64,000 nt of DNA from Bacteroidota bacterium (GTDB lineage: Bacteria > Bacteroidota > Bacteroidia > B-17B0 > Aurantibacillaceae). The notes beneath the pieces were generated by a model. It was not told the DNA's origin. It was given only the letters and a program-made list of their open reading frames with translations, and did not search any database. Below are positions 1 through 9,266 of the stretch, in pieces. Both the position numbers and the translations under genes were made by a program. Location of the stretch: contig JANYEQ010000126.1 of the NCBI GenBank assembly GCA_025363015.1, positions 1-64,000 on the forward strand, in the 5' to 3' direction. Position 1 is the first letter of the stretch, and each line of letters opens with the position of its first letter.

Positions 1-330
1 AGACACCACTCCGATATAGATATTGCTAATGGTAAAAGTTATGGAAGTAGCAGCTATTCTAACAACTTGAAATATTTAATAATAAAAAATCAAGTATTAA
101 ATTTTGATACAATATTCCCCTTCGATATTAAATTTTTCTTAAAATCTGGAATTAATAGTGCTTACCTTAGCCCATCTAAAATAATCTTTAAAGAAGGTTA
201 TTTTATATCGTTTCATGATACTACTCTTAAAACTAATCCTAAGTGTAAATTTTGCAAGATACATATCGATTCCATAGAAAAAATATTAGTAAGAGGGCCC
301 CGAATGAATAAAATGAATCGAAAAAAGTGA
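1..330 (+). CDS. 3' end of an unknown protein (partial)
   Basis: The reading frame is open from the first base of the window, so the gene starts to the left and only its last 109 residues are seen. A TTG at 67 could serve as a start, but the open frame before it argues for a longer protein. The visible part is rich in Lys, Ile, Asn and Phe. It has a CxxC pair (C-K-F-C) about 30 residues from the end and finishes in a very basic tail. I do not recognise a family. A decayed copy of its middle section lies just downstream (398-519). Confidence 0.5.
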   Translation, partial: RHHSDIDIANGKSYGSSSYSNNLKYLIIKNQVLNFDTIFPFDIKFFLKSGINSAYLSPSKIIFKEGYFISFHDTTLKTNPKCKFCKIHIDSIEKILVRGPRMNKMNRKK

Positions 331-755: not shown

Positions 756-791
756 ATTTGTTTAACTTTACATTTATTTACTTAAACAAAT
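756..791. promoter_or_regulatory. Inverted repeat upstream of tspO (putative operator, site 1)
   Basis: Perfect 10-base arms ATTTGTTTAA (756-765) and TTAAACAAAT (782-791) are separated by 16 bases; the right arm ends 18 bases before the tspO ATG. The same core (TTGTTTAA, 16 bases, TTAAACAA) occurs before folE and crtI. Relative to those two sites this copy reads better in reverse, where it shares the longer right arm AAAGTTAAACAA. A MerR-family dimer operator is the natural reading; that is inference. Confidence 0.6.
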
Positions 792-809: not shown

Positions 810-1307
810 ATGTTAATTTCTACAGAAATAAATAAATCAAAAACTTCTTTTTTAAGAGGAGTTGTTTGTAGCTTAATTATTTTAACATTAGGATTCTTAT
901 CAGGCTTATCTACTAGCAGCGAAATTCAAATTTGGTTTACAACCATTATCAAACCAAGTTTTAATCCACCAAATTTTATTTTTGGTCCGGTTTGGACATT
1001 ACTTTACATTTTAATGGGTATTTCATTCTCTATTATAATAAGCCAAAAGCCATCCGTTAATCGCACTAAGGCTATTACAATATTCGCTGTTCAATTTATT
1101 TTTAATTTAATGTGGAGTGTTATTTTTTTTAAAATACATCAAATAGGTTGGGCTTTTGTTGAAATTATATGTATGTGGATTTCAATATTAATAATGATAG
1201 TTTTATTTTATCGCTCTCAAAAAATAGCTGGCTTATTACAAATACCCTACTTACTATGGGTAAGTTTTGCAAGTGTACTTAATGGCAGTATCTATTATTT
1301 GAATTAA
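810..1307 (+). CDS. tspO: TspO/MBR family tryptophan-rich sensory protein
   Basis: This 165-residue protein has about five membrane-spanning segments, the usual size and layout of bacterial TspO (translocator protein/peripheral benzodiazepine receptor family). Family signatures include PPN near residue 53, GPVW at 59-62, F-N-L-M-W-S near 98-103 and PYLLW near 146-150, with the typical tyrosine-containing end. TspO proteins bind porphyrins and sterols in the membrane, and in Rhodobacter TspO modulates carotenoid and photosynthesis genes. Here it heads a group with a B12-type MerR regulator and photolyase. A perfect inverted repeat shared with folE and crtI precedes it, so control by light or oxidative stress is likely. 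Confidence 0.93.
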   Translation: MLISTEINKSKTSFLRGVVCSLIILTLGFLSGLSTSSEIQIWFTTIIKPSFNPPNFIFGPVWTLLYILMGISFSIIISQKPSVNRTKAITIFAVQFIFNLMWSVIFFKIHQIGWAFVEIICMWISILIMIVLFYRSQKIAGLLQIPYLLWVSFASVLNGSIYYLN

Positions 1308-1367: not shown

Positions 1368-2246
1368 TTGAGTTCTTACCAAATAGCCGACCTAGAAAGA
1401 TTAACAGGAATTAAAGCGCACACCATTAGAATATGGGAGAAACGTTATAACCTTATTGAACCTCACCGCACCTCCACTAATATTAGGTATTATGATGACG
1501 CGCAAGCCAGAAAATTACTAAAGGTTTCCACTCTACTTGAGCAGGGATTAAAAATCTCAAAAATCTCACTGCTATCTGATAAAGAAATAAATATAAAGGT
1601 ACAGGAAATACAAAAGCAAGGCACTGATGATGTAACATGTGCCAGTTATATTAATGAGTTAATTGGTTCGATGCTTATTTTTGATGAAGTAGGATTTGAT
1701 AAAGCATTTTCATCGGCAGTCGTTCGTTTTGGAATGTATCAGGCCATGCTTAAAGTATTTTATCCATTCTTACATAAAACAGGTTTAATGTGGGCATTAG
1801 AAGAAGCTATGCCTGCACAAGAGCGATTTGCAACGTCAATTATTCACCGAAGATTAATTAATGCGATAGATGGTTTATTGCCTCCAACAAAAAAAACAAA
1901 AACGTTTTTGTTATTTCTTGCAAATGATGAATGGCACGAAACGGGCTTACTTTTCTCAGATTACATTATTCGTTCACAAGGTTACAAAACTATTTACCTT
2001 GGCCAAAATGTACCAGCAGAAAATTTGATAGAAGTAATAACTAGCACTAAGCCTACTCATATTCTTACCTTGTATATTGCCAGACGAGAATTATCAATCA
2101 TTGAAAAAGAACTAACTGCCATCTCAAAACAAAATCCTAATTTAAAATTATTAGTTGCTGGTAGCCATTCATTTGAAAAAATTTCTAAAAAAATTAAAAA
2201 TTTACTAATACTTAAATCTCCACCAGATTTATTAAAACTCCTGTAA
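1368..2246 (+). CDS. MerR-family regulator with cobalamin (B12)-binding domain, CarH/LitR type
   Basis: A MerR-type winged helix (residues 2-70, with Y-Q-I-A-D-L, R-I-W-E-K-R-Y and R-Y-Y) is followed by a helical cap domain (about 95-172) and a Rossmann-type B12-binding domain (177-292). E188-W-H190-E-T-G193 matches the D/E-x-H-x-x-G signature, H190 being the expected cobalt ligand. Relatives (CarH, LitR) repress carotenoid genes in the dark and release DNA when light breaks adenosylcobalamin. The cap motif Wx9EH is changed: W142 and E152 are present, but residue 153 is Arg. The later S-x-L and GG elements are also weak. Ligand or photochemistry may therefore differ. The only usable start is TTG; a stop lies in frame five codons upstream. 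The gene lies between tspO and photolyase. Confidence 0.88.
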   Translation: MSSYQIADLERLTGIKAHTIRIWEKRYNLIEPHRTSTNIRYYDDAQARKLLKVSTLLEQGLKISKISLLSDKEINIKVQEIQKQGTDDVTCASYINELIGSMLIFDEVGFDKAFSSAVVRFGMYQAMLKVFYPFLHKTGLMWALEEAMPAQERFATSIIHRRLINAIDGLLPPTKKTKTFLLFLANDEWHETGLLFSDYIIRSQGYKTIYLGQNVPAENLIEVITSTKPTHILTLYIARRELSIIEKELTAISKQNPNLKLLVAGSHSFEKISKKIKNLLILKSPPDLLKLL

Positions 2247-2308: not shown

Positions 2309-3616
2309 ATGAAAAAAATAGTTGTATTTTGGTTTAGAAGAGATTTACGTCTTAAAGATAATGCTGGGCTTTATTACGCGCTTAAAAGTGGGTATAACGT
2401 TTTACCTATTTTTATTTTTGATAAAAGTATTTTAGAAAAACTTCCTAGTAAAAATGATAAACGTGTTGATTTTATTCATCAAACAATTACTCAATTAAAT
2501 GAGCAATTACAACAATACCATTCCGGATTAGTTGTATTACATAGCACTCCAATAAAAGCCTTTGAAGAATTAATTACGACCTATAACATTGAATCAGTTT
2601 TTACAAATCATGATTATGAACCATATGCCAACGAAAGAGACAAATCTATTCATCAATTTTTAGCAACAAAGGGTATTGGTTTTAAAACGTATAAAGACCA
2701 ATGTATTTTTGAAAAAACAGAAGTAACAAAGGATGATGGAAAGCCATATAGCGTTTTTACACCTTATAGTAAAAAATGGAAAGCAAAACTCAATGCATTT
2801 TATTTATCATCATACCCCACCCAAAACTATTTCTCTAAATTTCACAAAATAGAAATCAAAAAAATTCCATCGTTAGAGCAAATGGGCTTTAAACAAACGG
2901 ATGTAGATATACCCATTAAAACTATTAAAAAAGAAATACTCATTAAATACAGTCAACAACGTGATTTTCCAGCTTTACAAGGCACAACACTGCTGAGTGT
3001 ACATTTGCGTTTTGGTACGGTAAGCATTAGAGAATTGGCGCGGGCTGCACAACAACTTAGCGAAACCTGGCTAAATGAATTAATATGGCGAGATTTTTAC
3101 ATGATGATTTTACATCACTTTCCGCATGTAGTTAAAGGAGCGTTTAAGCCTGCATACAACACTATTTTATGGCGTAATAACGAGCAAGAATTTAAAGCTT
3201 GGTGTGACGGAAAAACAGGCTACCCTATTGTAGATGCTGGAATGCGACAACTAAATGCCACAGGCTTTATGCATAATAGAGTGCGGATGATTGTAGCTAG
3301 TTTTTTAGTAAAAGATTTATTAATAGATTGGCGTTGGGGAGAAGCCTATTTTGCCGAAAAATTACTTGATTTTGATTTGAGTGCCAATAATGGTGGCTGG
3401 CAATGGGCAGCTGGCAGCGGTTGTGATGCCGCCCCGTATTTTCGAATTTTTAATCCTACCGAGCAAACTAAAAAATTTGATAAAGAATTAAAGTATATTA
3501 ATACTTGGATTTCAGAATTTAATACTTCCGAATATCCCTTACCAATTGTTGAACATTCTCAAGCACGTATTAAAACGTTACAAGCCTATAAAACTGCTCT
3601 CACAGCCCTTCACTAG
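2309..3616 (+). CDS. phrB: Deoxyribodipyrimidine photolyase (class I CPD photolyase/cryptochrome family)
   Basis: This flavoenzyme uses blue light to split cyclobutane pyrimidine dimers in DNA. At 435 residues it has the normal length, with an N-terminal antenna-binding alpha/beta domain (W-F-R-R-D-L-R-L at 8-15) and a C-terminal helical FAD domain. Visible active-site elements are W-L-N-E-L-I-W-R-D-F-Y (254-264), H-N-R-V-R-M (322-327) and A-A-P-Y-F-R-I-F-N-P (374-383). The electron-transfer tryptophan triad is intact at W288, W341 and W364, with the same 53- and 23-residue spacing as the E. coli enzyme. The complete triad and the CPD-type active site favour a repair enzyme over a pure photoreceptor. 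It lies 62 bases after the B12-type regulator and is probably co-transcribed with it. Confidence 0.95.
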   Translation: MKKIVVFWFRRDLRLKDNAGLYYALKSGYNVLPIFIFDKSILEKLPSKNDKRVDFIHQTITQLNEQLQQYHSGLVVLHSTPIKAFEELITTYNIESVFTNHDYEPYANERDKSIHQFLATKGIGFKTYKDQCIFEKTEVTKDDGKPYSVFTPYSKKWKAKLNAFYLSSYPTQNYFSKFHKIEIKKIPSLEQMGFKQTDVDIPIKTIKKEILIKYSQQRDFPALQGTTLLSVHLRFGTVSIRELARAAQQLSETWLNELIWRDFYMMILHHFPHVVKGAFKPAYNTILWRNNEQEFKAWCDGKTGYPIVDAGMRQLNATGFMHNRVRMIVASFLVKDLLIDWRWGEAYFAEKLLDFDLSANNGGWQWAAGSGCDAAPYFRIFNPTEQTKKFDKELKYINTWISEFNTSEYPLPIVEHSQARIKTLQAYKTALTALH

Positions 3617-3747: not shown

Positions 3748-3839
3748 TTTGTTTAATGATACAATTTACTTACATATAGCATAATTTTAGTTTGTTTAAC
3801 ATAAATACATAAAAGTTAAACAAAAAATGATTACATTTG
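3748..3839 (+). promoter_or_regulatory. folE promoter region with inverted repeat (putative operator, site 2)
   Basis: Perfect arms TTTGTTTAAC (3791-3800) and GTTAAACAAA (3815-3824) flank a 14-base spacer. Counting the shared 8-base cores TTGTTTAA and TTAAACAA, the gap is 16, as at tspO and crtI. A further lone half-site, TTTGTTTAA, lies at 3748-3756. A consensus Bacteroidota -7 box TACATTTG sits at 3832-3839, with no TTTG at normal -33 spacing, so the operator occupies the place of the -33 element. That geometry would suit an activator or a repressor blocking polymerase. Confidence 0.6.
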
Positions 3840-3867: not shown

Positions 3868-4587
3868 ATGGAAAATCAAATTATAGAAATGAATTCGTTA
3901 TTAAATAAAAATAGCATTCAGTTAAGCCATTTAACAAGTGATGAAATAGGCGATGAACATATCTCAACAGGTATTGATACGCCTTTACTAGCAAATGCGT
4001 TTGAAATGAGTGATGCAGATAAAATAGCAAAAATTGAATTTCATTTTAAAGAAATAATGGAAACGATGGGTTTAGATTTAAGTGATGATAGCCTAAAAGG
4101 CACGCCCCATCGCGTAGCAAAAATGTATATTCAAGAAATTTTTAGTGGATTAAATCCAGCCAATAAGCCTAAGATTGCTTTATTTGAAAACAAATACCAA
4201 TACAATCAAATGTTAGTAGAAAAAGATATTACTTTTTATAGTAATTGCGAACATCATTTTGTACCAATATTTGGCAAAGCCCATTTAGCTTACATCTCAT
4301 CTGGTAAAGTAATTGGATTATCAAAACTAAACAGAATAGTTAATTATTTTGCAAAGCGCCCTCAGGTGCAAGAGCGATTAACGATGCAAATTGCAATGGA
4401 GTTACAAAGTATATTAGCAACAGAAGATGTGGCTGTGATATTAGATGCCAAACATCTTTGCGTATCGTCACGAGGGATTAAAGATAATAGCTCTGCTACT
4501 GTAAGTACTTTTTATGGAGGAAAATTTAACACAGAAGCCGTGAAACAGGAGTTTTTAAAATACATTCACTTAAACACTACTTACTAA
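3868..4587 (+). CDS. folE: GTP cyclohydrolase I
   Basis: FolE converts GTP to 7,8-dihydroneopterin triphosphate, the first step to folates and other pterins. The zinc ligands are all present at C127, H130 (in C-E-H-H) and C198 (in H-L-C-V-S-S-R-G), with the same spacing as Cys110, His113 and Cys181 of E. coli, offset by 17. The acidic, probably disordered N-terminus of about 45 residues is longer than in the minimal enzyme. The next gene overlaps the stop codon by one base (TAATG). The gene lies between photolyase and carotenoid genes and shares their inverted repeat. One inferred role is supplying the methenyl-tetrahydrofolate antenna of photolyase; other pterin uses are possible. Confidence 0.96.
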   Translation: MENQIIEMNSLLNKNSIQLSHLTSDEIGDEHISTGIDTPLLANAFEMSDADKIAKIEFHFKEIMETMGLDLSDDSLKGTPHRVAKMYIQEIFSGLNPANKPKIALFENKYQYNQMLVEKDITFYSNCEHHFVPIFGKAHLAYISSGKVIGLSKLNRIVNYFAKRPQVQERLTMQIAMELQSILATEDVAVILDAKHLCVSSRGIKDNSSATVSTFYGGKFNTEAVKQEFLKYIHLNTTY

Positions 4588-5009
4588 TGTATATCAATCC
4601 AATTGATAAAGATAAAGTTGCAGAAAACCCAGGTTTATTGGCTTATCCACACCATATAGGGAGCGTTAGCGTAAAGCCCGAAGATGTTGGAAAATTAAAA
4701 TCAAGAGCTTTAGCGGCTATGATAGAGCAAACAAATAAACAGCTATCACAACTACAAAAGCAAGCAGAGTTATTAGCGCAACAAGCATTTGAAATAAAAA
4801 AACGTGTAGAGGTAAGCGAAAAAATTTATACCGCCAGCATCACTTTTGAACCTTTTGTTGGTAACGAATATTATTTATACGAACACGAAGGTATTCATAA
4901 ACTTATGATGATTGCACCCTATGAATGGGGAAAATCAAAAAAAGAAAACTTAATTTTTGTAAGTACAGTAAGGCTTTTAAGTGACCATACCTGGGAAATA
5001 ATTAATTAA
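4587..5009 (+). CDS. DUF2452 family protein
   Basis: This 140-residue soluble protein resembles the DUF2452 family, whose function is unknown. A short N-terminal segment with N-P-I-D and Y-P-H-H-I-G-S leads into a long helix rich in Gln, Leu and Ala (about 45-85, probably coiled coil). A compact C-terminal part (about 90-140) contains Y-Y-L-Y and W-E-I-I. Its ATG overlaps the folE stop codon by one base, so the two are almost certainly translated from one message and share the regulatory repeat upstream of folE. Confidence 0.75.
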   Translation: MYINPIDKDKVAENPGLLAYPHHIGSVSVKPEDVGKLKSRALAAMIEQTNKQLSQLQKQAELLAQQAFEIKKRVEVSEKIYTASITFEPFVGNEYYLYEHEGIHKLMMIAPYEWGKSKKENLIFVSTVRLLSDHTWEIIN

Positions 5010-5253: not shown

Positions 5254-5285
5254 TTGTTTGATATATTTACGAAAAAGTTAAACAA
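5254..5285. promoter_or_regulatory. Inverted repeat upstream of crtI (putative operator, site 3)
   Basis: TTGTTTGA (5254-5261), 16 bases, then TTAAACAA (5278-5285), ending 5 bases before the crtI ATG. The left arm differs by one base from the arms at tspO and folE; the right arm in its longer form AAAAGTTAAACAA is identical to that at folE. A -7-like box TATATTTA (5262-5269) lies inside the spacer, so a bound protein would cover the core promoter. Role as an operator of the carotenoid operon is inference. Confidence 0.55.
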
Positions 5286-5290
5286 AATAA

Positions 5291-6763
5291 ATGTCTAATA
5301 TTACAGTAATAGGAAGTGGTTTTTCAGGTTTAGCTGCCTCGGCTTATCTTGCAAAGGCAGGGCATAAAATAACTGTTCTTGAAAAAAATTCTCAAATAGG
5401 TGGTAGGGCGCGTGCTTTTGAGGCCAATGGCTTTATGTTTGACATGGGGCCAAGTTGGTATTGGATGCCAGATACGTTTGAAAGTTTTTTTAATGCGTTT
5501 GGTAAAACCACACAAGATTATTATCAATTAGTAAAACTAGAGCCAGGGTTTCAAATATTTTTTGGTAAAGGAGAGGTTATTCAAATTCCTAACAATAAGG
5601 AAGAGCTGATGAATCTTTTTGAATCTATTGAGAAAGGAAGTGCTAAAAAATTAGACCTCTTTCTTAAAGAAGGAAAATTTAAGTACAAAGTAGGCATGCA
5701 AAAACTTGCTCATAAACCAGCCATTTCGTGGATGGAATTTGCAAATTATGAAGTGATTAGTGGTGCCTTAAAATCGAATATGTTTCGCTCTATGAAAAGC
5801 TATGTCAATAGTTTTTTTAAAGATCCACGATTAGCTTCTATCATGGAATTTCCAGTTTTATTTCTTGGTGCAAAGCCTTCAAATATCCCTGCTTTGTATA
5901 GCTTAATGAATTATGCTGCTCTTGAATTAGGAACATTTTATCCGATGGGTGGCATGTATAAAATTGCAGAGGGAATGAAAGAATTAGCTCTTGAGCTTGG
6001 TGTAAATGTAATAACCAATTGCGAGGTTGAGCATATCTTAACACAAAATAAACTAACAAAAAGTGTTAGCACCAATAAAGGTTCATTTTTAAGTGATGCT
6101 ATTATCGCTTCTGGCGATTATCATCATATTGAACAAAAATTATTAGATGAAGAATTTAGAAACTATAGTACTAGTTATTGGGATAAAAGAATATTAGCGC
6201 CTTCTTCACTTATTTTTTATATTGGTGTTTCAAAAAAAATAAAAAAACTGATCCATCATAATTTATTTTTTGATTCGAGTTTTGAAAAACATTCTTTTGA
6301 AATATACGATGAACCGCAATGGCCATCCGAGCCCCTTTTCTATGTTTGTTGTCCCTCTAAAACAGATGATTCGGTTGCCCCTAAAGAAATGGAAAATCTA
6401 TTCATACTTATACCAATTGCTACAGGATTAAAAGATACTGACGAATTAAGAGAAGCCTACTTTAAAAAAGTAATTACGAGATTAGAAAAGGAGTGTAATG
6501 ATACTATTGAAGAACATATTACTTATAAAAAAAGCTATTGTATAAATGATTTTGTAAACGATTACCACGCGTTTAAAGGAAATGCTTATGGCTTAGCGAA
6601 TACGTTATCACAAACTGCTGTGCTTAAACCTTCTATACGTAATAAGCAACTTAAAAATATTTTTTACGCTGGGCAACTTACTGTTCCTGGGCCTGGCGTT
6701 CCTCCTGCATTAATTTCAGGAAAAATTTCGGCCGAACAAACTATTAATTATTTAAAAAAATAA
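5291..6763 (+). CDS. crtI: Phytoene desaturase (CrtI type)
   Basis: The enzyme introduces double bonds into phytoene to give lycopene, using FAD at the membrane. The N-terminus has the dinucleotide fold G-S-G-F-S-G-L-A-A-S (8-17) followed by E-K-N near residue 32 and G-G-R-A-R-A. The C-terminal carotenoid oxidoreductase signature A-G-Q-L-T-V-P-G-P-G-V-P-P-A lies near 462-475. At 490 residues the length is typical. This is the first gene of a tight operon, three bases before crtB, and directly follows the shared inverted repeat. Lycopene as product is inferred from the cyclase further down. Confidence 0.96.
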   Translation: MSNITVIGSGFSGLAASAYLAKAGHKITVLEKNSQIGGRARAFEANGFMFDMGPSWYWMPDTFESFFNAFGKTTQDYYQLVKLEPGFQIFFGKGEVIQIPNNKEELMNLFESIEKGSAKKLDLFLKEGKFKYKVGMQKLAHKPAISWMEFANYEVISGALKSNMFRSMKSYVNSFFKDPRLASIMEFPVLFLGAKPSNIPALYSLMNYAALELGTFYPMGGMYKIAEGMKELALELGVNVITNCEVEHILTQNKLTKSVSTNKGSFLSDAIIASGDYHHIEQKLLDEEFRNYSTSYWDKRILAPSSLIFYIGVSKKIKKLIHHNLFFDSSFEKHSFEIYDEPQWPSEPLFYVCCPSKTDDSVAPKEMENLFILIPIATGLKDTDELREAYFKKVITRLEKECNDTIEEHITYKKSYCINDFVNDYHAFKGNAYGLANTLSQTAVLKPSIRNKQLKNIFYAGQLTVPGPGVPPALISGKISAEQTINYLKK

Positions 6764-6766
6764 AAC

Positions 6767-7603
6767 ATGAAGCATTTGTTTGATGATGTATCATTCGCTA
6801 CAAGTAAGCATACTACTCGCACCTACAGTACCAGTTTTTCTTTAGGTATATACTGTTTAAATAAAAGTGTTCATACGCCTATTTATAATATTTATGGATT
6901 TGTGCGCTTTGCCGATGAAATAGTAGATTCATTTCATGACTACGATAAGGTTAAATTGCTTAAAGAATTTAGAGAAGAAACCTATAAGGCTATTGAACGT
7001 GGCATTAGTATAAATCCTATACTAAATAGCTTTCAACATGTAGTAAAAAAATATAAGATTGAAATGGAACTTGTAGAATGTTTTTTAAATAGTATGGAAA
7101 TGGACCTGACTGAAAATAGACATTCACAAAACTCCTATGAAACCTACATTTTAGGTTCTGCAGAAGTAGTAGGATTAATGTGCTTACGGGTTTTTACAAA
7201 TGGCGATGAATCTCAATATCAAAAATTAAAACCTTCGGCCATGAAACTAGGTTCTGCTTTTCAAAAAATTAATTTTTTACGAGATATTAAAGATGATTAT
7301 AAAACCTTAGGTCGAACCTATTTTCCAAACATAGACATTGCACTATTAACCAATAAAGAAAAAGCTGAAATTGAGCTTGATATTGAATCTGATTTTAGAG
7401 TAGCTCTTGAAGGTATTAAGCAATTACCAATGAATGCTCGCTTTGGAGTTTACGTTGCATATGTTTATTATTATGCGCTCTTTACCAAAATTAAAGGGAT
7501 ACCATCCTATAGAATAATGAAAGAACGTGCACGTATTTCTAATTATCAAAAAATTGGGCTACTCGCACGTTCCTATTTTAAACACAGTTTAAGAATGCTA
7601 TGA
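6767..7603 (+). CDS. crtB: Phytoene synthase
   Basis: CrtB condenses two geranylgeranyl diphosphates to phytoene, the first committed carotenoid step. Both aspartate-rich motifs that bind the diphosphate-magnesium complex are present: D50-E-I-V-D54 and, after N-F-L-R, D173-I-K-D-D177. The conserved S-x-S-F and G-R-x-Y-F-P segments of squalene/phytoene synthases are also seen. The 278-residue length is normal. The stop codon overlaps the next ATG (ATGA), showing translational coupling within the operon. Confidence 0.96.
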   Translation: MKHLFDDVSFATSKHTTRTYSTSFSLGIYCLNKSVHTPIYNIYGFVRFADEIVDSFHDYDKVKLLKEFREETYKAIERGISINPILNSFQHVVKKYKIEMELVECFLNSMEMDLTENRHSQNSYETYILGSAEVVGLMCLRVFTNGDESQYQKLKPSAMKLGSAFQKINFLRDIKDDYKTLGRTYFPNIDIALLTNKEKAEIELDIESDFRVALEGIKQLPMNARFGVYVAYVYYYALFTKIKGIPSYRIMKERARISNYQKIGLLARSYFKHSLRML

Positions 7604-8103
7604 AAAAACTATTTATTCTATTTTTAATTGCCTACATTCCATTTCAGCTATTTGCCAGCGATAAAGATTTGTTAAAAGTTCGCGATCTTTATTATAGAGC
7701 CTCTGCAAATAAAGAAGATGCGGAAATTTTTCACGAGTATTTAATAGCTAAACCTGAAATTACAACCGATCTACTTTCGGGTTATAAAGGTATTTCCTAT
7801 ATGATTAAAGCTAATTATTCGTGGAATCCTTACAACAAGTTAAGTTTTTTTAATAAAGGCAAAGATCTTCTGGAAAATGCAATAGGAAAAGATCCATCAA
7901 ATGTTGAACTTCGATTTCTTAGATATTGCGTACAAGCCAACGCACCTGGTTTTTTAGGTTATAGTGGGAAAATAAAAGAAGATAAAGCACTAATACTTTA
8001 TGGTTATGCCTTTTTAAAAGATACAGATTTAAAATACCGCATTAAAAATTATCTTAGTATCTCAAAATACTTAACAGAAGAAGAAAAACGTTCGCTCAAA
8101 TAA
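7600..8103 (+). CDS. Unknown exported protein within the carotenoid operon
   Basis: This protein of 167 residues has a clear signal peptide (about 1-19, ending F-A-S), so it should act in the periplasm or cell envelope. The rest is mostly helical and TPR-like, with a segment A-N-Y-S-W-N-P-Y-N-K-L near 66-76, then D-P-S-N-V-E-L-R-F-L-R near 92-102. No enzyme motif is seen. Its ATG overlaps the crtB stop codon by four bases and crtZ follows 22 bases later, so it is tied to carotenoid synthesis. A role in assembling or placing the pigment in the membrane is only a guess. Confidence 0.7.
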   Translation: MKKLFILFLIAYIPFQLFASDKDLLKVRDLYYRASANKEDAEIFHEYLIAKPEITTDLLSGYKGISYMIKANYSWNPYNKLSFFNKGKDLLENAIGKDPSNVELRFLRYCVQANAPGFLGYSGKIKEDKALILYGYAFLKDTDLKYRIKNYLSISKYLTEEEKRSLK

Positions 8104-8125: not shown

Positions 8126-8590
8126 ATGACTTGGTTTATAAACATATCAATTACCATTATCACCTTCATTACTATGGAAGGCACAGCTTGGCTGGCTCAT
8201 AAATATCTTATGCATGGTTTGCTATGGAACTTACATCGCGATCATCACGAACCTCATGAAGAAAAAGTGTTTGAAAAAAACGACTATTTCTTTGTTATAT
8301 TTGCTTTGCCTGCTATCATTTGTTTTTATATTGGTTTTATAGACTTCTCGTTTCCATTATGGATAGGACTTGGAATTACGCTTTATGGCTTAGCTTATTT
8401 TTTTATTCACGATCTTTTTATTCATCAGCGTTTAAAAGTGTTACGAAAAGCCGATTCGGTTTATTTTAGAGCAATTAGAAAAGCACATAAAATGCATCAC
8501 AAGCATTTGGGACCTCAAAACGGAGAATGTTTTGGTATGCTTTGGGCTCCTTTAAAATATTTTAAAGACGTAAAAAAACATGCCCAGTAA
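8126..8590 (+). CDS. crtZ: Beta-carotene 3-hydroxylase
   Basis: This 154-residue diiron membrane enzyme carries the full histidine set of the fatty-acid hydroxylase/CrtZ family: H25-x4-H30, H37-x2-H40-H41, H95-x4-H100 and H121-x2-H124-H125-x-H127, spread between hydrophobic segments. It adds hydroxyl groups to the beta rings of beta-carotene, giving cryptoxanthin and zeaxanthin. It overlaps the lycopene cyclase gene by 11 bases, and the pair provides ring closure plus hydroxylation. No ketolase (CrtW or CrtO) gene was recognised in the window, so zeaxanthin rather than astaxanthin is the expected aglycone. Confidence 0.93.
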   Translation: MTWFINISITIITFITMEGTAWLAHKYLMHGLLWNLHRDHHEPHEEKVFEKNDYFFVIFALPAIICFYIGFIDFSFPLWIGLGITLYGLAYFFIHDLFIHQRLKVLRKADSVYFRAIRKAHKMHHKHLGPQNGECFGMLWAPLKYFKDVKKHAQ

Positions 8591-9266
8591 GTTTACCTAT
8601 TTACTTATTGATGTTGCCACAATTTTAGTGCCGTTTGTCTTTAGTTTTCATCCTAAAATAAAATTTCATAAAACGTGGAAAGCATTTTGGCCAGCTAATA
8701 TCATCATCGCCTTATTATTTATTTTATGGGATATACTTTATACCTATTTGGGTGTTTGGGGCTTTAATGATAAATATATCTGTGGCTTAAAACTATTTAA
8801 TTTGCCAATTGAAGAAGTATTATTTTTTATTTGTATTCCTTACGCAAGTATATTTACTTACCACTGTTTTAAACTTTTTATAAAGAATAAAAAAGTAAAT
8901 GTAAAATATGTTTCTCTTTTTTTAAGTGTATTGCTTATTGTAATAGGTTTAATGTTTATTTCAAATTTATATACTAGTGTTACATGTATTCTACTTGGTA
9001 GTTTTATTATTTTTCTTACATTCATAACAAAGGTAAATTGGTTACAAGCTTTTTATTTGTGTTATTTAGTGATTCTTTTACCCTTTTTTATCGTTAACGG
9101 AATACTAACAGGTTCATGGATTAACGAGCCAATTGTTTGGTATAATAATCAAGAGAATTTACATATACGTCTTTTAACCATACCGGTAGAGGATATCTTT
9201 TACGGAATGTTATTATTAATGCTTAACACATGGCTATATGAGCGTTTCTCTAAACAAAGAGAATAA
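8580..9266 (+). CDS. Lycopene beta-cyclase, CrtYcd/CarR-like membrane type
   Basis: The 228 residues form six to seven membrane segments as two lycopene-cyclase domain repeats. Each carries the acidic signature P-x-E-[ED]: P76-I-E-E-V and P202-V-E-D-I. The segment N-G-x-L-T-G-S-W (173-180) is also typical. In actinobacteria the two halves are separate CrtYc and CrtYd proteins; here they are fused, as usual in Bacteroidota. It converts lycopene to beta-carotene without net redox change. The start overlaps crtZ by 11 bases and the end overlaps the glycosyltransferase start by 29 bases. Confidence 0.92.
   Translation: MPSKFTYLLIDVATILVPFVFSFHPKIKFHKTWKAFWPANIIIALLFILWDILYTYLGVWGFNDKYICGLKLFNLPIEEVLFFICIPYASIFTYHCFKLFIKNKKVNVKYVSLFLSVLLIVIGLMFISNLYTSVTCILLGSFIIFLTFITKVNWLQAFYLCYLVILLPFFIVNGILTGSWINEPIVWYNNQENLHIRLLTIPVEDIFYGMLLLMLNTWLYERFSKQRE

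Follow-up and report, generated by a model that had tools for sequence, protein, structure and literature searches.

The window examined here, a stretch of 64,000 nucleotides from a member of the Bacteroidota, carries a regulator gene whose product is, by sequence and structure, a member of the MerR-B12 lineage of CarH and in which the histidine of the Wx9EH motif is replaced by arginine. We read this protein, at a probability of about 0.55, as a Bacteroidota cobalamin repressor of photoprotection genes of the CarH/LitR type whose cap has been altered in one lineage and which would still bind cobalamin and switch. New here is a candidate operator that tracks the regulator through related genomes. 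The regulator may sense light or B12 differently from nearly all its relatives.

1368..2246, + strand: CarH-like regulator with MerR-HTH, four-helix cap and B12-binding Rossmann domain (Pfam, PDB sequence match, model)
1824..1826, + strand: codon CGA of R153

The open reading frame at 1368-2246 (+) starts with TTG and encodes 292 amino acids. Pfam detects MerR_1 (PF13411, 1.5e-16), and the RxWE.RY of MerR-type HTH domains is found in TIRIWEKRYN; the B12-binding domain (PF02310, residues 186-267, 1.1e-4) is matched at 22.5 bits, under the 32.1 cut-off. In a phmmer search against PDB sequences the best solved structures were those of LitR/CarH from Thermus thermophilus (TtCarH; PDB 5C8D/5C8E/5C8F, 3WHP), and when an AlphaFold2 model (53-sequence alignment, mean pLDDT 93.1) was compared with known structures, CarH entries and CtMerR of Chloracidobacterium thermophilum (PDB 8JBS/8JBT, Z 19.0) came out on top with Z about 19, mostly over residues 89-292. 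The regulator shares with TtCarH the MerR HTH, the four-helix cap and the Rossmann B12 domain, the Trp, the Glu and the lower His, and the carotenoid genes nearby. It is present in a single copy in its genome, a draft in 143 contigs, and its homologues with a named source are all Bacteroidota. It probably works like other members of the CarH lineage.

The sequence-only reading had reported an intact cobalt-ligand motif and a Wx9EH region with Arg in the place of His, and the open reading frame reads exactly so. The lower-ligand motif D/ExHx2G is present as E188-W-H190-E-T-G193, with E and H found in all 109 aligned Bacteroidota homologues (80 from a search of the contig collection and 29 from related genomes, three rows being identical). 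The Wx9EH region reads W142, nine residues, E152-R153, and R153 is aligned under the His of the TtCarH EH by phmmer against PDB sequences; the equivalent TtCarH residues are W131 for W142, E141 for E152, H142 for R153, H132 for A143 and H177 for H190. In the model, residue 153 lies inside helix 149-168. Strict CarH membership, defined by two intact motifs, does not extend to the regulator because its Wx9EH is incomplete; we class it as CarH-like, in a form specific to its lineage.

The Arg does not characterise the clade. Of the 109 homologues, 108 have His at position 153 and the remaining one (L033) has Tyr; none of the relatives examined has Arg, and all 109 have Trp at position 142. A search of 395 genomes of the class for the pattern G139..W142..P149.QE[153]F gave matches in 88 with His codons and in one, the window's own, with CGN Arg codons; with DDN codons, which include AGR Arg and exclude CGN, none of the 395 matched. 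As the codon pattern is strict, a genome with no match may still hold the regulator gene. The closest relatives, one from the same genus (L092) and two from the family (L082 and L083), keep EH, and since R153 is private the change is therefore placed on one terminal branch. No other His stands in register: the only one gained nearby is H160, where 106 of 109 homologues have Arg or Lys, and it was rejected as a substitute because it lies seven residues, or two helical turns, further along the helix. An error of sequencing or assembly at codon 153, or a strain variant of an ordinary EH regulator, is a very improbable source of R153: although the genome is a draft and the search turned up no other genome from this species (the nearest row is 65% identical), CGA is at least two base changes away from the CAC/CAT of the ten near rows, the reading frame is intact and the same helix carries further private residues close by.

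A second upper-face position is changed as well, a point that the sequence-only reading had missed. In TtCarH the histidines near the upper face are H132 and H142 (PMC4557120); H132, the His after the Trp, is the upper ligand in the light, and an H132A variant was mostly still a tetramer after illumination in one study, an earlier report having differed (PMC10442372). The equivalent of H132, position 143, lacks His in all 109 Bacteroidota homologues, Gln being the commonest residue (50), and among 91 EH-pattern matches from the 395 genomes His was read by eye at this place in one (G092). The regulator, with A143 for H132 and R153 for H142, has neither upper-face His. CtMerR also has no His at the H132 place: it carries Arg there, it goes from tetramer to monomer in the light, the Glu and His of its EH move on illumination, and no bis-His light state was seen (PMC11796333). 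Since His132 is absent and CtMerR switches with Arg in its place, bis-His ligation appears unlikely as a rule in the Bacteroidota members, in which the EH histidine is probably the remaining upper-face His. Unlike CtMerR, which keeps EH, the regulator has Arg for that His.

As regards the remaining pocket, the regulator has six private residues found in no other row of the 109 (R153, H160, R162, N165, A185 and N186), which map without exception to the cap helix or to the loop preceding the cobalt ligand (32 of 289 columns), none falling in residues 1-75, the DNA-binding part. The pocket share, 6/6 against 59/598 for the other rows (binomial 9e-7), refers to a region that was defined post hoc; in a stricter count over 14 near relatives the regulator has three of four deviations in the pocket, and so has L084. 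Because of the post hoc region and the similar concentration in L084, we take this clustering as a lead and not as proof of remodelling.

The interpretation given by the sequence-only reading is supported in part. Its altered cobalamin cap stands, R153 being found in no relative examined and no His standing in register. The weakness of the S-x-L and GG elements, which had been counted towards it, is real (T234 and G265-S266 stand for the SxT/V...GG of CarH), but it is clade-wide, the second G of GG occurring in 2 of 109 homologues and position 234 being Thr in 84 of 109, and it adds nothing to the cap alteration. The signature of light response has been given as GxxW, EH, GxxH and GxxxP (PMC11796333): the regulator has G139xxW142 and keeps G212xxxP216, its EH is ER, and the G of GxxH is D187.

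Decay or relaxed constraint of the regulator was rejected, since it keeps 52 of the 55 columns with conservation of at least 90% and its terminal branch is ordinary in length (0.33 changes per column, the median being 0.34, in a quick tree). Its three departures, N52K, H153R and K162R, fall within the range of the other rows (median 1, largest 8). K52 (window 1521-1523), where 105 of 108 homologues have Asn, belongs to the long helix of the DNA-binding part (residues 44-58).

The genes around the regulator are the following.

810..1307, + strand: TspO/MBR family protein, the first gene before the regulator (PF03073, 3.3e-47)
2309..3616, + strand: DNA photolyase/cryptochrome family (PF03441, 9.2e-74; PF00875, 1.5e-42)
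3868..4587, + strand: GTP cyclohydrolase I, folE (PF01227, 1.8e-61)
4587..5009, + strand: DUF2452 protein, after folE here and in some relatives (PF10504, 4.5e-11)
5291..6763, + strand: CrtI-type phytoene desaturase, named from family context (Pfam Amino_oxidase PF01593, 8e-26)
6767..7603, + strand: CrtB, phytoene synthase family (PF00494, 4.3e-41)
8126..8590, + strand: CrtZ-like hydroxylase, name inferred from context (PF04116, 1.4e-11)
8580..9266, + strand: lycopene cyclase (PF18916, 1.3e-40)

These families resemble those controlled by class II LitR of Pseudomonas, namely photolyase, folE and cryptochrome-like genes (PMC9758184). Class II LitR is described as having kept just the four-helix portion of its B12 domain (PMC9758184), whereas the regulator has the Rossmann part, as indicated by the weak PF02310 hit and by the model aligned with CarH over 89-292, and also the lower His. 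The adenosyltransferase family (PF01923) was found in 11 of 12 genomes and the mutase family (PF01642) in 12 of 12, its own genome included; because both families are present, AdoCbl is plausibly made in the cell, and a lack of AdoCbl is ruled out as an explanation.

The palindrome TTGTTTAA-N16-TTAAACAA stands in front of tspO-merR-phr, folE and crtI, and of photolyase genes on another contig (C68, locus L115).

758..789, no strand: candidate operator, exact, 20 bp before the tspO start
3792..3823, no strand: candidate operator, exact, 44 bp before the folE start
5254..5285, no strand: candidate operator, one mismatch, 5 bp before the crtI start
7683-7714 and 10711-10742 of contig C68, own genome: candidate operators, exact

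Two exact sites in the window compare with 0.03 expected, an expectation calculated with gaps of 12 to 20 allowed. The genome as a whole has five candidate sites, four exact (none for the reversed control) and one with one mismatch. Sites were accepted at 0 or 1 mismatch only, a search with two mismatches being no better than control (43 places against 39 reversed). Of 120 related genomes, counting its own, 70 have the regulator; 56 of these carry an exact site and 14 have none, and of the 50 without the regulator one (G035) carries an exact site. The Fisher value of 2e-19 is a statistic that ignores kinship. At 0 mismatches the reversed control matched in 3 of the 120 (G013, G016 and G091). 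In 80 homologue loci, with at most one mismatch, the arms are separated by 16 bases in 60 sites, distributed over 46 loci, and by any other gap from 0 to 40 in at most 7. In a survey of gene order in 93 loci of relatives (L001 and L082-L114 omitted as short or duplicate), sites adjoin merR, folE and crtI too. The sequence TAnnTTTG, which we take to be the Bacteroidota -7 promoter element, falls inside 19 of the 60 sites, while shuffled sequences gave 2.0 (6 at most), and an operator overlapping it therefore fits a repressor role.

The TnnACA core of each arm agrees with the CarH half-site consensus, nAnnTnnACAn, which belongs to 11-bp direct repeats (PMC8156234); the arrangement here is inverted, with 16 bp between the arms. 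From the position and distribution of the sites, the regulator probably binds this palindrome at its own operon, folE, crtI and the further photolyase genes, and the 758-789 site would make tspO-merR-phr autoregulated. In the literature searched, mostly freely available papers, nothing recognisable was found on the arm TTGTTTAA or its extensions in this system, and no paper joining CarH and Bacteroidota; light-induced carotenoids are described in Chryseobacterium lacus, with a regulator that is speculative there (PMC7064467). The literature used also includes PMC8221060 and PMC12828988.

Near the C68 sites are genes of the DPRP, DUF2071, photolyase/cryptochrome, flavin reductase, short-chain dehydrogenase and DUF2805 families. 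This second operator-linked group (L115:3591-10701) contains two photolyase-type genes, DPRP and cryptochrome-like, and includes an unassigned 152-aa protein. Just behind the operator at 7683 lies an open reading frame (L115:7795-8012) whose start resembles that of an ABC transporter ATPase (GPNGAGKST) but which is cut short and leads into a YceI-like gene, as a deletion remnant would.

We infer DNA binding, cobalamin binding, repression and light response of the regulator along the following lines. In the dark, the regulator with cobalamin on H190 would occupy the palindromes and keep expression of its own operon, of folE and of the carotenoid and photolyase genes low until light, or the loss or change of the upper B12 ligand, freed them. 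In one lineage His153 would have become Arg, together with the private H160, R162 and N165 on the same helix and A185 and N186 in the loop leading up to the cobalt ligand. Cobalamin would still be held through H190, with W142, E152, E188 and H190 kept, and R153 would alter both how the upper ligand is gripped and how the photoreaction proceeds. Contacts of R153 with the adenosyl group or with E152 may shift the photochemistry; alternatively, R153 may make the protein prefer a different cobalamin or may release it from light control. Most likely, the regulator still represses the photoprotection regulon using cobalamin, with altered upper-face chemistry.

Wx9EH is described as absolutely conserved in all the CarH homologues studied and as critical for AdoCbl binding (PMC8156234), so that R153 could abolish cobalamin binding. 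Against a simple loss of function stand a DNA-binding part free of private residues, the five candidate operators and the adenosyltransferase and mutase families. More tentatively, the cap may have been rebuilt in this one lineage with no TtCarH upper-face His, the candidate operators and regulon being kept, giving either a third light-state chemistry or a light-free sensor of non-adenosyl cobalamin in charge of a photoprotection regulon. If this were true, such a sensor would need neither bis-His ligation nor the EH pair.

Doubtful is a light-independent cobalamin reporter, in which R153 would admit methyl- or hydroxocobalamin and the B12 state or redox would be sensed instead of light. The absence of both TtCarH upper-face histidines, the retention of the lower ligand H190 and of Trp142, and the private residues centred on the pocket are in its favour, but the gene set is photoprotective (photolyases, carotenoid genes, folE), as in light-inducible regulons (PMC9758184), and CtMerR still switches in the light with no H132 equivalent, though with EH kept (PMC11796333).

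A B12-independent repressor similar to CarA of Myxococcus xanthus, driven by a partner or by redox, is rather improbable. CarA is also a MerR-B12 protein with an incomplete Wx9EH, and partial loss of the motif went with its B12 independence (PMC9304148); moreover tspO lies directly upstream of the regulator, probably in the same operon. But CarA lost the Trp and its flanks and kept EH, whereas the regulator has done the reverse, keeping Trp and Glu and losing the His. H190, E188, W142 and G212xxxP216 are all kept, no BLUF match was found in the six genomes searched, its own included, and in some relatives tspO also adjoins His-bearing regulators (L124 and L126; it also adjoins the regulator of L121, which is cut off).

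A natural protein that keeps Trp and Glu but carries Arg for His offers a direct way of probing the part played by that His. The Bacteroidota homologues without His132, many of them beside carotenoid or photolyase genes, make switching of a B12 photoreceptor without bis-His directly testable, and the candidate operator can serve as a reporter and as a means of listing the regulon in other Bacteroidota genomes.

Two further features of the window were observed. Between crtB and crtZ, window 7600-8103 encodes a 167-aa protein with no Pfam match, and a similar protein is present in 16 of the 93 loci. Upstream of tspO, the end of ORF 67-330 (window 190-275) is apparently duplicated at 437-520 as a decayed copy, the shared stretch of roughly 80 bases having picked up changes and a stop, as read by eye.
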